Positions 7,628-15,667 of a DNA stretch of 64,000 nucleotides are shown here, one piece after another. Under the pieces are notes generated by a model. It did no database searches. It saw only the letters and a program-made list of their open reading frames with translations, and was not told the origin of the DNA. A program made the translations under genes and the position numbers. Each line of letters starts with the position of its first letter. Within the stretch, counting starts at the first letter, position 1. The DNA lies in the NCBI GenBank assembly GCA_016871415.1, contig VHDL01000012.1:1-64000 (forward strand), given 5' to 3'. The DNA is from Verrucomicrobiota bacterium (GTDB taxonomy: Bacteria; Verrucomicrobiota; Verrucomicrobiia; Opitutales; UBA953).

Positions 7628-10600
7628 TCAGCCACCGATCGACTTCAGGGTGACGAGATACTCGATGAGGGAGGTGAACTCGTCAACGGTGAGGCCGGCG
7701 GCGAGACCGGCCGGCATCATCGACTGCGGGAGATGCTTCTCTTCCCTCACGTCGTCGCGCTTGATCTTGGAGACCTGGCCGGCGATGTTGCGGAGGGTGA
7801 TCACGCCGTCGGCCTCGCCGGTGACGAAGCCCATCTGGTCCGGGCCGTCCTTCATCGAAAGGACGACGGTCTGGAAGCCCTGGGCGACGACCTTATTCGG
7901 ATCGAGGATGGAATCGATCAGGTATTCGCGCGGGAACTTTGCGCCGGCGGCGCCGAGGTACGGACCCTTCTGCTCGGCGGCGAGGTCAACGGCATGACAG
8001 GCCACGCAGCCCTGCTGGGTGAAGAGACGCTGGCCGCTTTTCACGTTGCCGCGGCCCTTGAGGGCGGAGGCGGTGACGGACTTGGCGTCGAGCTGGGCGA
8101 TCTTCTTGCCCTTGCTGGCGGCGGCGAGCTTGCCCGCGACGAGCGCGGCCTTGGCGGCGTTGATCTGGAGGACGTTGTCTCCCTTCATGCCTTCCTGGAG
8201 CTGCTTGTCGAAGCCGGTGAGGCCGAGGTCGGCGACGGCATGGAAGAAGCCTAGGTCGCGCGGATTCTTGTCCACGTGGCCGCGGACGGCCTTCTTCTGC
8301 TGCTCCTTGGTGAGCGGGCTGCTGAGGACGTTGAGCAAGGCCTTCCAGAGGATCGTGGAAGCCGCATCCTCGGCCTTGTTGGCCATCGCGCGGAGCTTGT
8401 TCACCTGGTTGCCGCGTTCGGCCTCATAGATGAAGTCGCTGATCGCCTGCGTGGCGGAAGCGGGTGCCTGGGCGTCCTTGGACCAGCCGGCGAGGACCTT
8501 CACGCGCGGTTCGAGTCCGGCGTCGCCTTCGACCCTGAGGAGGGCCTTGTAGCAGCCGAGGCGCTCCTCCCACTTGCGAGAAGCCTGCAGGGCGGCGTCG
8601 ACGAGCAGGGCCTGGTCGGCCGGACGCAGGGTCTGGGAGGCCATGGCGAGGCGGAGCGGATCGAGGCCCTCGAGCTTGAGGTCGGTGATCGCGATGCGGT
8701 TCTTGGCGAGGACCTCGAGCGAGGCCATGCGCAGGTTGCCCGGCAGCTTGGCGTAGGCGGCTTCGAGGCCCTGATGGATGCGCGCCGTAGCGGACCAGGC
8801 GACGGGTTCGAAATACGGGCCGCGATCATCGGGGCGGGTGTTCCACCAGTCCTTGTAGTTCCACGGCTTCTCGACGTGGTAGAGGCGGGCAAGCGCGGAG
8901 ACCGCGCCGAAGCGGACGGATTCGTCGCCGCTCAGGCTCAGCTTGAGCAGGCCGTCGACGGCTTCGTCGGAGTGGATGCCCTGGAGCGCGCGGAAGGCGA
9001 CAAAGCGTTGCGCGGGATCGGCGAGCGCGGCGAGGCAGGCCTGGGCGTTGCCGAGGCCGCGGAGGGCCGCGATGGCGGTGTGCGGCAGGCGGTAATGTTC
9101 GCCTTCGCCGAGCCTGGACTCGTCGGCCGGCCACTGGGCGGCGGCGGCGAGGATGGCCGGGGCGGCGTCCTTCGCGCCGAGACGCTGGAGGCCGATGAGG
9201 GCCTGCAGGCGGACGCGTGGGTCGGTGTCCTTCAGGGAGTCGACGAAGAGCTGAGCCGGCACGCCTTCGAGCTGCGTGGTGCGGTCGGCGAGCGCGCGCA
9301 GGACGAACTCGCGGACGGCGGCGTCCTGGGCGAGGCCGACGAGGCCGGCATTGGCCTTGGCACCGAGGAGCTGCTTGTACGTGAAAATTGCGGCGACGCG
9401 GGCGTAGAGGTGCTCGGAACCAGAGCGCGCGATCGTGAGCACGGGCTCGGCGAGCGCGGGCTTGGCGCGGTCGAGGATCTGGCGCTGGGTCTCGAGGCGC
9501 TGGACGGCGGACTTCGAGGAGAGCTGCTTCACGAGGTCGGCGTCGGAGAGCTTGGTGACGTCGACATAGACGTTGGGCTTCACGTCCTTGGCGGTGATGA
9601 TCTGGATGGTGCCGTTCGGGTAGTAGATCGGCTCTTCGACTTCCTTGCCGTCCTTCATGACCTTCTTGCTCTTCGGCTTGTTGGTGCCGAGGTAGCTGAA
9701 GCCGCCGCCGCGCCAGTCGGAGAGGAAGAGGCGGGAGTTGCCGTCGACGTCGAAGTCGGTGGCGCGGGCGACCTTCTCGAAGGTCTCCTGCTGGGCGACG
9801 AACGTGGCCTCGAACCGCTTGATCGGGTGGCGGTGCAGCGTGCCGGTCGTCCAGTCGCAGGTAAAGAGGGACTCGCCGAAGTCGCCGGGGAAGCCAGGCT
9901 CGCTCAGGTAGAGGCCGCCGGTGCCGGAGCCGCCGCCGTAGTCGGCGAGGGGGTGGGCGATCTCGTCGGCGAAGTTCTTGTACAGGCGCGGGTAGCCGGC
10001 GTCGGCCAGCGAGGTATAGTGATGGAAGCGGGTGTTCCAGCCCTTGCCGTCGTTGGTGTTGTCGCGGGAGAAGAGGTCGAGGGTCGGGGAGATGGCCACG
10101 TCGCAGATGTTGCGGGTCATCACGGTGTGGTTCTCGAGCTCGGTGCCGTCGGGGCGGACGCGCATGACGCCGCCGCCGTACAGGGTGACGCGCTTCTTGT
10201 CGCCCAGGCCGAGGGCGCCGTCGTTGTCACGCAGGAGGCCCGCGCCGAAGTCGCCGACGGCGATGTAGAGCCAGCCGTCGATGCCCATGCGGCAGCCGTT
10301 GGTGGTGTGGTCCGCGCCGCGGGGGTGCTCGATGCCGCCGCCGAGGCCATCGACGAGGAGCGTGCGCTCGGTGGCGTAGTCGGCCTTGCCGTCGCCGTCC
10401 TTGTCCTGAAACTTGGAGAGGAAAGGCGGGTGGACGAGGTAGAAGACGCCGCCGACGAAGTGGCCGCCGCGCGGGCTCTCGACCTTGGTGTATTCGACGA
10501 CCTGGTCGGCGACGCCGGCGCCCTTGGTGTCGCGGGCGATGAGGATGCGGCCCATGCCCGGGACATGGCCGAGGGAGCCGTTCTTGTCAGAAGAGACGTA

Positions 10601-10747
10601 GACGTCGCCGTTGGCGGCGGCCGACACGGCGGTCGGGTAGATCTCGGGCACCTGGGCGTTACCGAGGAACTCGCGGATGACGAACCCTTCCGGCACGGCC
10701 TGGGCGGCCGCGGCGAAGAGGAAGAGTCCAAGGGAGGAGCGTACCAT
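7628..10747 (-). CDS. Exported PVC-type membrane-bound dehydrogenase / HEAT / cytochrome c protein
   Basis: 1039 residues. Residues 1-17 are a signal peptide (MVRSSLGLFLFAAAAQA). Residues about 20-370 form a β-propeller of the 'putative membrane-bound dehydrogenase' type, related to sugar/sorbosone dehydrogenases (HPRGADHTTNGCRMGIDGW, FTCDWTTGTLHRH). The middle, about 430-850, is HEAT-like repeats (DPRVRLQALIGLQRLGA). The C-terminus is a haem-binding cytochrome c domain with CVACH near residues 914-918 and a distal SMMPAGLA Met. Such fusions are abundant in Verrucomicrobiota and Planctomycetes and are thought to oxidise sugars or polyols in the periplasm and pass electrons to the respiratory chain; the substrate is unknown. 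The frame stays open upstream to 12172, but ATG 10747 starts the signal peptide. Confidence 0.92.
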   Translation of the reverse strand: MVRSSLGLFLFAAAAQAVPEGFVIREFLGNAQVPEIYPTAVSAAANGDVYVSSDKNGSLGHVPGMGRILIARDTKGAGVADQVVEYTKVESPRGGHFVGGVFYLVHPPFLSKFQDKDGDGKADYATERTLLVDGLGGGIEHPRGADHTTNGCRMGIDGWLYIAVGDFGAGLLRDNDGALGLGDKKRVTLYGGGVMRVRPDGTELENHTVMTRNICDVAISPTLDLFSRDNTNDGKGWNTRFHHYTSLADAGYPRLYKNFADEIAHPLADYGGGSGTGGLYLSEPGFPGDFGESLFTCDWTTGTLHRHPIKRFEATFVAQQETFEKVARATDFDVDGNSRLFLSDWRGGGFSYLGTNKPKSKKVMKDGKEVEEPIYYPNGTIQIITAKDVKPNVYVDVTKLSDADLVKQLSSKSAVQRLETQRQILDRAKPALAEPVLTIARSGSEHLYARVAAIFTYKQLLGAKANAGLVGLAQDAAVREFVLRALADRTTQLEGVPAQLFVDSLKDTDPRVRLQALIGLQRLGAKDAAPAILAAAAQWPADESRLGEGEHYRLPHTAIAALRGLGNAQACLAALADPAQRFVAFRALQGIHSDEAVDGLLKLSLSGDESVRFGAVSALARLYHVEKPWNYKDWWNTRPDDRGPYFEPVAWSATARIHQGLEAAYAKLPGNLRMASLEVLAKNRIAITDLKLEGLDPLRLAMASQTLRPADQALLVDAALQASRKWEERLGCYKALLRVEGDAGLEPRVKVLAGWSKDAQAPASATQAISDFIYEAERGNQVNKLRAMANKAEDAASTILWKALLNVLSSPLTKEQQKKAVRGHVDKNPRDLGFFHAVADLGLTGFDKQLQEGMKGDNVLQINAAKAALVAGKLAAASKGKKIAQLDAKSVTASALKGRGNVKSGQRLFTQQGCVACHAVDLAAEQKGPYLGAAGAKFPREYLIDSILDPNKVVAQGFQTVVLSMKDGPDQMGFVTGEADGVITLRNIAGQVSKIKRDDVREEKHLPQSMMPAGLAAGLTVDEFTSLIEYLVTLKSIGG

Positions 10748-10864: not shown

Positions 10865-12622
10865 ATGGCCCTTCCGGTGCTCAGGTTCTTCCCTCGTCCG
10901 AGAGAACTGACCCTCCGCGGGGGGTGGCTCAAGGCGCCCCCCCTGCCCCACCCGACGTCCGTCTTCCTCGCCGGCCTCCCGACGAACATGGACGAAGCCC
11001 GCGCGGCCCTGGCCCGGCCGCCGGAAGGTGCCTGCCGAATCGTCCATGCGCCGGAACGCGGACCGGAAGGCTACCATCTCGAGATCCTCGCCAGCGGCAT
11101 CCGCCTCCACGCCGGAGACGCGCACGGCTTGCTCTACGGCGCGCAGACCCTCCGCCAGATTGCCGCGCAACATCCGGACGAGCTGCCGCACCTCGAGATT
11201 ACCGATTCGCCCGACCTGCCCGTCCGCGGCTTCATGCTCGACGTCTCGCGCACGCGCGTGCCGACGCAAGCCGAGCTGCTCGCGCTCGTCCGCGCCTTGG
11301 GCCACTTGCGCGTCAACCAGCTCCAGCTCTACGTCGAGCACGCCTTCGCCTTCCGCGGGCACGAGGACGCCTGGCGGGACGCTTCGCCACTGACGCCCGC
11401 GGAGATCCGCGAGCTCGACGAAGCCTGCGCCGCGCTCGGCATCGAGCTCGTGCCAAACCTGAATACTTTCGGCCACATGGAGCGCTGGCTCCGTCACCCG
11501 CGTTACCGCGCAATGGCCGAATGCCCCGAAGGCTGGATCCATCCGCTGACCGGCCAGTTCAAGGAAATCCCTGGCACGCTGCGCCCCGACCAGGCGTCGC
11601 TCGACTTCGTGGCAGGCCTCCTCGACGACACCTTGCCGAACTTCCGCAGCCACCAGGTGAACATTGGCGGCGACGAACCGTGGGAGCTCGGCCAAGGTTT
11701 CAGCAAGCAGGCCGTCGCCGAACGCGGGAAGCACCGGGTCTACCTCGATCATCTCAAGAAGCTGTGCGCGCTGGCCACGGCCCGCGGGCGGACGCCGCAG
11801 TTCTGGGGCGACATCCTCCTCGAGGACCTCGCGCTCGCGCAGGACGCGCCGGCCGACGCCGTGCCGGTCGTGTGGGGCTACGACGCCGGCCACCCGTTTA
11901 AGGAACAATGCGGACGCCTCCGCGAACTCGGGCGGAACTACCTCGTCGCGCCGGGCACGAGCGCCTGGCAGAGCTTCACTGGCCGGCTCGACAATGCGCT
12001 GACCAACCAGGCCGAAGCCGTCGGCGCGGCCGTGCGCCACGAGGCGCGCGGTATCCTGCTCACCACCTGGGGCGACAACGGCCATCACCAGCCGTGGCCG
12101 ACCGCCTGGCTCCCGATGGCCGCGGGCCTCGCGATGGCCTGGCGCTTCACGGCCAACCTCTCGCCGGACCACGCGCGCGGATGCTCAGTCCTAGGCGGCC
12201 TCTCCGCCGCCGACGGCGCCGCGGCCGCCGAGACGCTGCGCCTCATGGGGACGTTGGACGAGCTCACGGCGAAGTCGGTGCGCAACCGCAGCCTCTCTTG
12301 GGACTTCCTCACCTGCGGGCCCGAGGCGCTACCGGGGCACCTCGAGGGCTTGAAGGCAAAGGAGGCCGAGGCCTCGCTCGCGCATCTCGACCGCTGCCGC
12401 GCCTCAGCCGCCAGCATTTCCGATCGGCGCGTGCGCGAGGAACTGACGCTCGGCGTCGACCTCGCCGCCGCCGGATTCCGGCGTGCGCTCGGCCGCGGAC
12501 TTCCGTCCGAAGAAAGGGCTTCGCTGCTCGCCCGGCACCGGGAGATCTGGCTGCGACGCTGCCGTCTGGGCGGTCTCGACGAAAGCTGCGCGCTGCTGTT
12601 CGGGGAACCCGTGCGCCGTTGA
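10865..12622 (+). CDS. Glycoside hydrolase family 20-like protein (β-N-acetylhexosaminidase type)
   Basis: 585 residues, no signal peptide, so probably cytoplasmic. The N-terminal 110 residues resemble the α/β domain that precedes GH20 catalytic barrels (GDAHGLLYGAQTLRQI). The barrel starts at LPVRGFMLDVSRTRVPT and carries GGDEPWELGQG with the Asp-Glu pair at residues 270-271, the expected acid/base pair of GH20. After the barrel there is a helical C-terminal extension of about 150 residues without a recognised domain. It would act on N-acetylhexosamine glycosides. CotH begins 22 bp downstream, so this is probably the first gene of the CotH-VTC-DUF4956 operon. An alternative GTG start at 10844 adds 7 residues. 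Confidence 0.8.
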   Translation: MALPVLRFFPRPRELTLRGGWLKAPPLPHPTSVFLAGLPTNMDEARAALARPPEGACRIVHAPERGPEGYHLEILASGIRLHAGDAHGLLYGAQTLRQIAAQHPDELPHLEITDSPDLPVRGFMLDVSRTRVPTQAELLALVRALGHLRVNQLQLYVEHAFAFRGHEDAWRDASPLTPAEIRELDEACAALGIELVPNLNTFGHMERWLRHPRYRAMAECPEGWIHPLTGQFKEIPGTLRPDQASLDFVAGLLDDTLPNFRSHQVNIGGDEPWELGQGFSKQAVAERGKHRVYLDHLKKLCALATARGRTPQFWGDILLEDLALAQDAPADAVPVVWGYDAGHPFKEQCGRLRELGRNYLVAPGTSAWQSFTGRLDNALTNQAEAVGAAVRHEARGILLTTWGDNGHHQPWPTAWLPMAAGLAMAWRFTANLSPDHARGCSVLGGLSAADGAAAAETLRLMGTLDELTAKSVRNRSLSWDFLTCGPEALPGHLEGLKAKEAEASLAHLDRCRASAASISDRRVREELTLGVDLAAAGFRRALGRGLPSEERASLLARHREIWLRRCRLGGLDESCALLFGEPVRR

Positions 12623-12644
12623 CTGCACCGGAACGGCGCGCAGG

Positions 12645-14225
12645 ATGAACGCCGTGAGCGCACTCCGCCCTGCCCTCCTGAGCGCCCTCGCGGCGACGCG
12701 CCTCGTCGCGCAGCAGGCGCCGGGTGAGGTCTCGCCCGATGCGCTCTTCGCCGGAGCCCTGCCCCGGATCGACCTCCGCCTCGATCCCGGAGCCCTGAAG
12801 GCGCTGGAGAAGGACCCGCGCGACTGGGTCGACTTCGTCCTCGCCGAGCAGGGCGGCGCCACGCTCAAAGACTGCCACATCAAGCTGAAGGGTTCCGCCG
12901 GCAGCTTCCGCCCCATCACCGACCCCCGTCCTGGCTTCTCCATCCGCACCGACAAGACTCAGAAGAAGCAGGAGTTCCGCGGGCTGGGGAAGTTCCAGCT
13001 CAACAATTGCGCGCAGGACGGCTCGATGCTGCTCGAGCTACTCGCGGGAGAGATGGCCCGCAAGGCCGGCGTGCCGGCGTCGCGCTGCACGCACGCCTGG
13101 GTCTCGCTCAACGGCCAGGCCCTCGGGCCCTACGTGCTCAAGGAGGGCTTCAACGCGGAGTTCCTCGGTTACTTCTTCAAAGACACGAAGGGCCACCTCT
13201 ACGACGGGGGCTTCGTGGCGGACATTCGGCCCGACATGGAGGTCGACCGCGGCGATCCCAAGGACAACCGGCGGCTGATGGAGCTCATCGGCGCCTGCCA
13301 GGAGCAGGATTCGGCGAGGCGCGCCGAGCGCCTCAACGCCGTCGTGGACGTCGATGCCTACCTGCGGCACCTCGCGATGGAGCAGGTCCTCTGCCACTGG
13401 GACGGCTATTCGTTCAACCGGAACAACTACCGGATCTACGAGAACCGCGCCGACGGGCGCTTTCACTTCATCCTGCACGGCATGGACCAGGTCTTCGGCG
13501 ACAACCGCTGGTACGTGTTCCGCCGGCCGGGCGGACTCGTGCCGGACGCGCTGTGGTCCTACCCGGCCATCCGCGCCCGCTACCGGGAGCAGTTCACGCA
13601 GGTCTACGTGCGCGCCCTACGTCCCGTCGACTGGCCCAAGCGCGCACTCGTCGTCGCCGAGGCCGTGGAGCTCCGGCTACGCCTGATCTCCGTGGAGGAG
13701 TCCAAGCGCTTCGCCGACCGCGGCCGCGACGCCTCCGAAAGCATCCGCCGGCGGCTGGAGCATGTCCGCCAGCAACTCGATGACGCCTCCCGCCTGCGTC
13801 GCGCGGGAGGCGCGGTCGCCCTCGGAAGCTACCATTGGACCCGCTCGACGGACAAGGACGCCAAAGCGAATGAGCCCGACTTCGACGGCCGTGGCACCCT
13901 CCGTCTGGGCGTCGATGCCGAAGGCGGAGCGGACTGGCGGCTTCAGCTGGCGCTGCCGGCCGGACGATACCGGATCACCGCGGGCGTGCGCACCAAGGAG
14001 GTGCGGGCCGATCCGGCGAAGGGCCCCGGCTTCCGCATCCGTCTCTCCGGACAGTCCGAGAGCCCTGCCTTGAAATCGCTGACGGGCACCCAGACGTGGC
14101 GCTCGGTGAGCGCCGACTTCATCGTGGCCGAGGAAGGGGAGCCGACGCTGGTGATGGAGCTCAAGGCCGCCGGCGGCGAAGCCTGGATTGACCGCTCGAC
14201 CATCTCCCTCATCCGCCTGCCCTAA
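12645..14225 (+). CDS. Exported CotH kinase-family protein with C-terminal β-domain
   Basis: 526 residues. Residues 1-22 are a signal peptide (SALRPALLSALAATRLVAQ). The CotH domain spans roughly 35-380: LKGSAGSFRPITDPRPGFSI, GKFQLNNCAQDGSML, DVDAYLRHLAMEQVLCHWDGY, NNYRIYENRADGRFHF and the metal-site-like HGMDQVFGDN all follow the family pattern. Bacillus CotH is an atypical protein kinase that phosphorylates spore-coat proteins. Residues about 400-525 look like a β-sandwich (carbohydrate-binding-like) module. Being exported, it would act outside the cytoplasm. VTC starts 3 bp after its stop. Its kinase activity and substrate here are unproven. The open frame extends to 12483; ATG 12645 was chosen because it begins the signal peptide and has AGG just upstream. 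Confidence 0.88.
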   Translation: MNAVSALRPALLSALAATRLVAQQAPGEVSPDALFAGALPRIDLRLDPGALKALEKDPRDWVDFVLAEQGGATLKDCHIKLKGSAGSFRPITDPRPGFSIRTDKTQKKQEFRGLGKFQLNNCAQDGSMLLELLAGEMARKAGVPASRCTHAWVSLNGQALGPYVLKEGFNAEFLGYFFKDTKGHLYDGGFVADIRPDMEVDRGDPKDNRRLMELIGACQEQDSARRAERLNAVVDVDAYLRHLAMEQVLCHWDGYSFNRNNYRIYENRADGRFHFILHGMDQVFGDNRWYVFRRPGGLVPDALWSYPAIRARYREQFTQVYVRALRPVDWPKRALVVAEAVELRLRLISVEESKRFADRGRDASESIRRRLEHVRQQLDDASRLRRAGGAVALGSYHWTRSTDKDAKANEPDFDGRGTLRLGVDAEGGADWRLQLALPAGRYRITAGVRTKEVRADPAKGPGFRIRLSGQSESPALKSLTGTQTWRSVSADFIVAEEGEPTLVMELKAAGGEAWIDRSTISLIRLP

Positions 14226-14228
14226 GCG

Positions 14229-14939
14229 ATGTCCGCGCGCTTCGAGCACAAGTTCATCGTGAGCGCCCACCAGACCGACGCCCTCGTGTCGGCGCTCGGG
14301 CCGTCGCTCATTCCCGACGCGACCGCCGGCGGATCCTACCCCGTCCTCACGCTCTATCACGACTGCCCGGAATTCTCCGCCCTCGAGGCCCAGCGTCGCG
14401 GGGCGCCCTTCCGGAGCAAGGTGCGCGTGCGCTGCTACGGCAGCGCCGACGGGCGCATCGCCCCGACGACCTTCGTCGAGCTCAAGCGCCGTGACGGCCC
14501 GGACGGAGCCAAGGTCCGCGCCAGGGGCACCGCGGCCGCCTGCGCGGCGCTGGCCCGCGGTGACGCAGATGCCGCCGCCGACCTTGAGCCCGGGGAGCGC
14601 GCGGCGGCGGCGGAGATCGCCGGCTTCGCCCGACCCGCCGGCCTGCGGCCTGCCTGCCTGATGCGTTACGACCGCAGGGCGTGGTCACTCGGCGCCCTCC
14701 GTCTGACGCTGGACCGCGACCTGATGGTCCGGCACGAGGACCTCCGGGCGAGGCCCGATGACCGGGCGTTCGTCCGGCGGGCTCTCGAAGCGGACCGGCT
14801 GGTCCTCGAGGTGAAGGGCGAAGGCGCCGTGCCGTTGGAGATTGCACTTCTGTTCACGCGGCTTGGAATTCGACCCTGCCCCTTCAGCAAATACGCCGCC
14901 GGGATGGCCGCCGCGAATCCCCTTCACCCATGCAACTGA
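14229..14939 (+). CDS. VTC-domain polyphosphate polymerase
   Basis: 236 residues, one VTC (CYTH-like tunnel) domain without the SPX domain of yeast Vtc proteins. The tunnel-lining basic and acidic residues are all present in order: RFEHKF at the start, RSKVRVRCY near 60, FVELKRR near 85, MRYDRRAW near 145, LRLTLDRD near 158, LVLEVKGEG near 195 and FSKYAAG near 225. In yeast Vtc4 the equivalent domain makes polyphosphate from ATP. No membrane segment, so it should sit at the inner face of the membrane with the DUF4956 protein, whose gene overlaps it by 10 bp. Starts 3 bp after cotH. Intact motifs argue for an active enzyme. Confidence 0.9.
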   Translation: MSARFEHKFIVSAHQTDALVSALGPSLIPDATAGGSYPVLTLYHDCPEFSALEAQRRGAPFRSKVRVRCYGSADGRIAPTTFVELKRRDGPDGAKVRARGTAAACAALARGDADAAADLEPGERAAAAEIAGFARPAGLRPACLMRYDRRAWSLGALRLTLDRDLMVRHEDLRARPDDRAFVRRALEADRLVLEVKGEGAVPLEIALLFTRLGIRPCPFSKYAAGMAAANPLHPCN

Positions 14940-15667
14940 TCACGAACCTCATCGCCCAGGCCCCGACCCTCGAGAAACGCCTGCACGCACTGCTCATCCC
15001 GAAGTCCTTCGGCGCGCCCTCCCCCGCGGTGTTAGAAATCCTCTTCGCCATCCTGTTTAGCTTCGGGCTGTGCGCGCTGGTCGCGTGCACCTACCGCTCC
15101 GTGTGCGGCCCGGAGCGCCACTCCCAGGACTATGTGCACACGCTCGTGATTCTCGGCACCGTCGTGACCCTGACCATCATGGTCGTCTCAGGCAACGCGG
15201 CCGCCGCCTTCGGCATGTTCGCCGCCTTCTCCATCATCCGCTTCCGCCGCACCGTGCGGCAGTCGCGCGACATCGCGTTCGTCTTCCTCGCCATGGGCGC
15301 GGGCCTTGCGGTCGGCGCGCGGCAGTACGTCCTCGCGCTCGTCACCGTCCCGGCCGTATGCGGACTCGCGCTGCTGCTCTCCCGGGCGAACCTCTTCGCC
15401 GCCGCGCCAGCGCCCCTGCGCCTGCGCGCGCGCCTCGGCGCCGACCAAGACCCTGGCGCGCTGCTCGCCCCCGCCTTCGCGGCGCACCTCGCGCGGCACG
15501 AGCTGCGGTCCCTGGAGAACGTGCAGGCCGGCCTGCAGCTCGAGGCCTCCTACGACATCGTCCTGCGCGACCCGTCCGGGACGTCGGCCTTCCTGGCCGC
15601 CGTGCGTGAGGCGACCGGCAACAACCGCGTCATCCTGCGTTCGGGGGACGTCGAGACGGCCGACTGA
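14930..15667 (+). CDS. DUF4956 integral membrane protein
   Basis: 245 residues. Hydrophobic segments lie around residues 33-55, 66-87, 90-105, 115-130 and 130-152. The family signature is clear: AAFGMFAAFSIIRFR, then RQSRDIAFVFLAMGAGLAVGA. The C-terminal 90 residues are soluble. The function of DUF4956 is not established, but its genes commonly sit beside VTC and CotH genes, as here. It overlaps the VTC gene by 10 bp, a sign of translational coupling. A working guess is a membrane partner that receives or moves polyphosphate made by the VTC protein. It is the last gene of the operon; sdhB converges on it. Confidence 0.88.
   Translation: MQLITNLIAQAPTLEKRLHALLIPKSFGAPSPAVLEILFAILFSFGLCALVACTYRSVCGPERHSQDYVHTLVILGTVVTLTIMVVSGNAAAAFGMFAAFSIIRFRRTVRQSRDIAFVFLAMGAGLAVGARQYVLALVTVPAVCGLALLLSRANLFAAAPAPLRLRARLGADQDPGALLAPAFAAHLARHELRSLENVQAGLQLEASYDIVLRDPSGTSAFLAAVREATGNNRVILRSGDVETAD

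Follow-up and report, generated by a model that had tools for sequence, protein, structure and literature searches.

Gene content of the locus

The window that we analysed, a 64,000-nucleotide stretch on contig 12 of a 2.2 Mb Verrucomicrobiota genome (99.5% complete), carries four open reading frames lying head to tail on the forward strand, all of which we verified and matched to Pfam families with scores above the curated cut-offs. These encode a GH20-like hexosaminidase (10865..12622; GH20 and GH20b domains, 44–46 bits), a kinase-fold CotH protein that is probably exported (12645..14225; 98 bits), a VTC-domain protein (14229..14939; 94 bits, cut-off 23) and a DUF4956 membrane protein (14930..15667; 60 bits). 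GH20 and CotH are separated by 22 bp and CotH and VTC by 3 bp, and VTC and DUF4956 overlap by 10 bp, so the gene order and spacing described in an earlier sequence-only reading stand for the window itself. The product of a divergent gene adjoining GH20 (7628-10732) is a large protein that combines HEAT-like repeats with a C-terminal CxxCH heme motif; the gene adjoins GH20 in most of the genus, but three loci (L063, L064, L065) lack it between GH20 and metK.

A three-gene cassette within the genus

The conserved unit is CotH-VTC-DUF4956 (12645-15667). VTC was present in 24 of the 36 genus relatives searched, and in all 24 it lay between CotH and DUF4956, an order kept too consistently to be chance. 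Where the contigs reach, the 24 genomes share a single chromosomal site, which reads metK, a cytochrome-like gene, GH20, the CotH-VTC-DUF4956 cassette and sdhB. The gap between CotH and VTC is 1–6 bp in all Opitutae loci, while the spacing of VTC and DUF4956 varies, across all loci, from an overlap to a gap of 143 bp. The proposal that these three genes form one unit is thus borne out: their order is not confined to one genome, and the residues of VTC and CotH, far from varying freely in relatives, are conserved.

Within the genus CotH, VTC and DUF4956 are present or absent together, and the cassette is gained or lost as a three-gene block with GH20 as its resident neighbour. In four cassette-less genomes (G006, G011, G018, G030) GH20 lies directly against sdhB with no cassette gene in between, and the same holds for a fifth (G024), in which the junction contains a stretch of N. 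In G011 the flanks of the empty site meet within ~300 bp, with no coding relic of the cassette found between them. The cassette-less species fall in three places in the GH20 tree, one of them inside the cassette-bearing clade, a pattern suggestive of at least one loss. Short dispersed palindromic repeats occur at the empty site (L059:7079-7385) and at both cassette flanks in relatives (L045, ~6573 and 9793), and could help cassette loss.

GH20 was also considered as a fourth, functional member of an amino-sugar system, as the sequence-only reading had proposed. Its catalytic domain has the D-E pair, with the GGDE motif conserved in relatives, and it was found in 34 of the 36 genus relatives, with the same neighbour and strand as in the window in the 17 whose contigs reach it. 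This constancy, the 22-bp gap in the window’s genome and the glycosidase-like gene found 3′ of the module in both an Anaerolineales locus (L124) and Streptococcus would all suit such a system. Against it, GH20 is kept without the cassette in the five relatives named above, and other families of the same order contain GH20 homologues where VTC or CotH is lacking. Over 47 loci the GH20-CotH gap extends from 22 bp, in the window, to ~2 kb with a median of ~350 bp (approximate values, since gene starts come from automatic trimming and some loci were retrieved twice). Moreover, CotH has a signal peptide, whereas none was found on GH20 in any relative examined. Given its retention in cassette-less relatives, its variable gap and its missing signal peptide, we rejected GH20 as a fourth element; the four-gene reading is largely refuted, and we regard it as highly improbable. 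The tight packing of all four genes, although real in the window, does not extend to GH20 and CotH in relatives and is peculiar to this genome, where the gap is the smallest of the 47.

A near-obligate pair with an exchangeable exported partner

Scanning GTDB contigs with DUF4956 retrieved 79 loci from Opitutae, Chthoniobacterales, Anaerolineales, Clostridia, Coriobacteria and Methanolobus, and in nearly all of those whose contig reaches that far the gene immediately upstream of DUF4956 was VTC. A search of a plasmid collection gave one match, in Nonomuraea. To guard against the bias introduced by a DUF4956 query, the two families were also counted separately in genomes. Among 155 Verrucomicrobiota genomes, VTC was found in 26 and DUF4956 in 25, all 25 of which also carried VTC (hypergeometric P ~5e-28, a value that is too small because the genomes are related), and 27 of 28 DUF4956 places were beside VTC by coordinates. 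In Bacillota (the phylum of a Lachnospiraceae genome), VTC was found in 21 of 149 genomes, and DUF4956 was adjacent at all 20 VTC loci examined, these being a sample of the 26 VTC places. The constant core beyond the genus is therefore VTC plus DUF4956, a pair that occurs in Verrucomicrobiota, Bacillota, Coriobacteria, Chloroflexota and methanogens. That the two are almost never apart suggests a two-part polyphosphate machine, which may pass polyphosphate through the membrane.

The third position is filled by exchangeable exported proteins, CotH or Cthe_2159 (a secreted carbohydrate-binding family), and never by both. At the 20 Bacillota loci, CotH adjoins the pair in 13, Cthe_2159 in 5, neither in 2 and both in 0 (Fisher p 0.0014, somewhat too small since L162 and L163 are near copies). 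In the DUF4956 scan, too, Cthe_2159 lies 3′ of the pair at 12 loci, and no CotH was found anywhere in 8 of 13 genomes bearing VTC and DUF4956.

Other neighbours were seen in particular lineages. By gene layout, 11 of the 20 Bacillota loci (L156-L158, L160-L163, L166-L168, L175) have an OmpR-type response regulator and a histidine kinase next to VTC-DUF4956, with one pair confirmed by Pfam and most others assigned by similarity to that pair. In Chthoniobacter/Prosthecobacter-like loci (L107, L111, L112, L114), a pseudopilin-like gene lies 3′ of VTC-DUF4956, with a very large multi-domain CotH of 1330-2406 aa beyond it. The Anaerolineales locus (L124:6894-12142) has CotH-VTC-DUF4956 followed by its glycosidase-like gene, which is the layout of the Streptococcus pel accessory block.

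Predicted properties of the three proteins

The VTC protein (236 aa) consists of the VTC domain alone, with no fused SPX domain detected by Pfam, and its profile match is to yeast Vtc4 (E 9e-17) and specifically to the Vtc4/Vtc2/Vtc3 group. We compared it with Vtc4 at nine catalytic or tunnel positions, and eight are conserved, K455 being the exception. In the alignment K8, R66, R68, K86, K95, R149, E194 and K221 correspond to Vtc4 K200, R264, R266, K281, K294, R361, E426 and K458, and all eight positions are invariant in 16 sequences, which agrees with the earlier view that the tunnel residues are kept. R264, R266 and E426 have been described as key residues of Vtc4 (PMC9911596). On these grounds VTC is a probable cytosolic, ATP-dependent polyphosphate polymerase. 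PPK1 is also encoded in the window’s genome, so VTC was rejected as the sole source of polyphosphate, and storage polyphosphate needs no CotH-VTC-DUF4956 cassette.

CotH matches the fold of Bacillus cereus CotH (5jda, Foldseek E 5e-18). Its D253 and N261 are invariant and D281 is present in at least 90% of sequences, in keeping with the claim that the kinase residues are preserved; family, fold and active-site aspartates together make it a predicted kinase. The C-terminal part (approximately residues 390-526, 13812..14222) is all-beta in the prediction and resembles a CBM-like jelly roll, with Foldseek matches to CBM61, CBM16 and CBM35 (E ~1e-4). A signal-peptide-like N-terminus recurs in relatives, which supports the earlier suggestion of export; the localisation of CotH, like its substrate, is something we infer. 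Part of the genus has a tandem CotH duplication upstream of VTC, with ~230-275 bp between the copies (L034, L035, L037, L038, L074, L085, L092, L110), and four loci (L057, L058, L072, L073) have a second, clearly different CotH away from the cassette (E ~1e-58 to Pfam).

The DUF4956 model (pLDDT 87) has five predicted transmembrane helices, as expected for the integral membrane protein that had been proposed, and a C-terminal domain for which the fold search returned ACT domains and the C-terminal domain of MgtC. The alignments for structure prediction left out L155, the row from the plasmid collection. R104-F105-R106 (15239..15247), in the predicted cytosolic TM3-TM4 loop, is invariant in 59 bacterial and archaeal sequences, and would lie on the cytosolic face if the C-terminal domain is cytosolic. 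Arginines on a cytosolic loop are also expected from the ordinary positive-inside rule. DUF4956 is a Pfam family other than the VTC transmembrane domain, and for its transmembrane part neither a PDB match nor the VTC transmembrane domain was among the matches listed, which were filled by the ACT-like domain.

A possible split polyphosphate synthase and translocase

The best explanation that we can offer, still a tentative one, is a split VTC-type polyphosphate synthase/translocase that serves an exported partner. VTC would make polyphosphate from ATP in the cytosol, and DUF4956, as its dedicated membrane partner, would most likely take the growing chain at its arginine-rich cytosolic loop and then move it across the inner membrane, with polymerase activity and translocation both presumed. 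Two separate proteins would in this way do the work of the catalytic and transmembrane parts of the eukaryotic VTC complex. CotH, as an exported glycan-binding protein of kinase fold, would act on the outer side in place of the Cthe_2159 of other lineages, the exported partner there binding to glycans or altering proteins, and the likely outcome being polyphosphate or phosphate on or near a surface polymer. In favour of the split are features observed at these loci, namely the gene content and linkage, with co-occurrence and adjacency of the pair, presence or absence as a block, the conserved Vtc4-type catalytic residues and the exchangeable, glycan-related third gene, together with the multi-helix DUF4956 and its R-F-R. 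The reading also leans on the precedent of the yeast complex, in which basic transmembrane residues draw polyphosphate into the channel and are needed for polyphosphate in the lumen (PMC9911596).

Several points weigh against the split VTC. No sequence match or detected fold match links DUF4956 to the VTC transmembrane domain (the matches listed were mostly ACT-like), the R-F-R arginines fit the positive-inside rule as well, and PPK1 gives another route to polyphosphate. The main alternative, which we consider unlikely, is that polyphosphate stays cytosolic and DUF4956 only anchors VTC, or switches it through a ligand of the ACT-like domain, with no export and with CotH co-regulated for another reason. 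A ligand-type regulatory role has been proposed for MgtC-type proteins, and the match of the DUF4956 C-terminal domain to ACT regulatory and MgtC C-terminal domains suits such a switch. The MgtC resemblance has also been noted for the Streptococcus homologue (PMC12345266). A purely cytosolic system leaves unexplained, however, the exported third partner at 18 of the 20 Bacillota loci.

Genetic results from Streptococcus intermedius bear on both the split VTC and a further alternative. Deletion of the CotH or DUF4956 homologue altered the amount of Pel and aggregation, whereas deletion of the polymerase homologue SIR_1593 caused no drop in aggregation and was reported without such an effect on Pel (PMC12345266). 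This difference counts against the split VTC, and the small effect on Pel would suit a VTC protein that is another CYTH/TTM triphosphate-tunnel enzyme, such as a phosphotransferase charging a membrane or glycan acceptor then used by CotH. We found no assay of such a prokaryotic VTC in the papers that we read, and the residues compared, of the E426 type and the basic tunnel, are common to the superfamily. Yet the profile match points specifically to Vtc4/Vtc2/Vtc3 and the polymerase residues are retained, and we judge this alternative less probable again than a cytosolic role. An extension of the split VTC would have exported CotH, located where ATP is absent, use polyphosphate delivered by VTC-DUF4956 as phosphoryl donor, giving self-supplied extracytoplasmic phosphorylation of glycan-bound targets; this is a speculation to which we give very little weight.

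A near-obligate pair of VTC and an uncharacterised membrane protein is a small and directly testable candidate for polyphosphate transport across a prokaryotic membrane, and this wider pattern, an obligate pair with an exchangeable exported partner, is of more interest than the window’s own copy.

Comparison with known systems

The spore-coat kinase CotH of B. cereus and B. subtilis (PDB 5jd9, 5jda) shares the kinase fold and active-site aspartates with the window’s CotH, which adds a signal peptide and the CBM-like domain and has no sporulation context. With the eukaryotic VTC complex (Vtc1/Vtc3/Vtc4; PMC9911596) the locus has in common a catalytic tunnel domain with its key residues and a linked membrane part; here, in contrast, the two parts are separate proteins with no SPX, and DUF4956 has no detected homology to the VTC transmembrane domain in a fold search that scarcely covered its transmembrane part.

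In Gram-positive bacteria, pel operons can carry cotH, a poly-phosphate polymerase gene and DUF4956 together as accessory genes (PMC7112168), as in S. intermedius SIR_1594-1591, which ends with a DUF4832 glycosidase (PMC7112168, PMC12345266). Shared with this block are the three contiguous families, an exported CotH and a glycosidase nearby. The window’s glycosidase differs in being a GH20 that lies upstream, has no signal peptide and is independent of the block, and its CotH has a CBM-like domain where that of Streptococcus is described with FN3. A link to Pel (pelDEADAFG) was rejected, as none of the 57 genomes searched (the window’s genome and 56 relatives) has PelG. Of 17 Bacillota genomes with VTC and DUF4956, 15 likewise lack PelG, and PelF and PelG were present at 1 of the 20 Bacillota loci examined (L165). 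The synteny of CotH, polymerase and DUF4956 has been reported as not found outside Pel loci (PMC12345266), which our survey contradicts. An earlier non-Pel case is NELoc-2 of Clostridium perfringens, with VTC, DUF4956-like and CotH genes (PMC2879425); it too brings VTC and CotH together at a single locus, and has a chitin-synthase-like glycosyltransferase close by, whereas none adjoins the window’s cassette. The CotH-VTC-DUF4956 module has thus already been described, among Pel genes and in C. perfringens, as an uncharacterised one, and the window’s copy belongs to that module, outside Pel.
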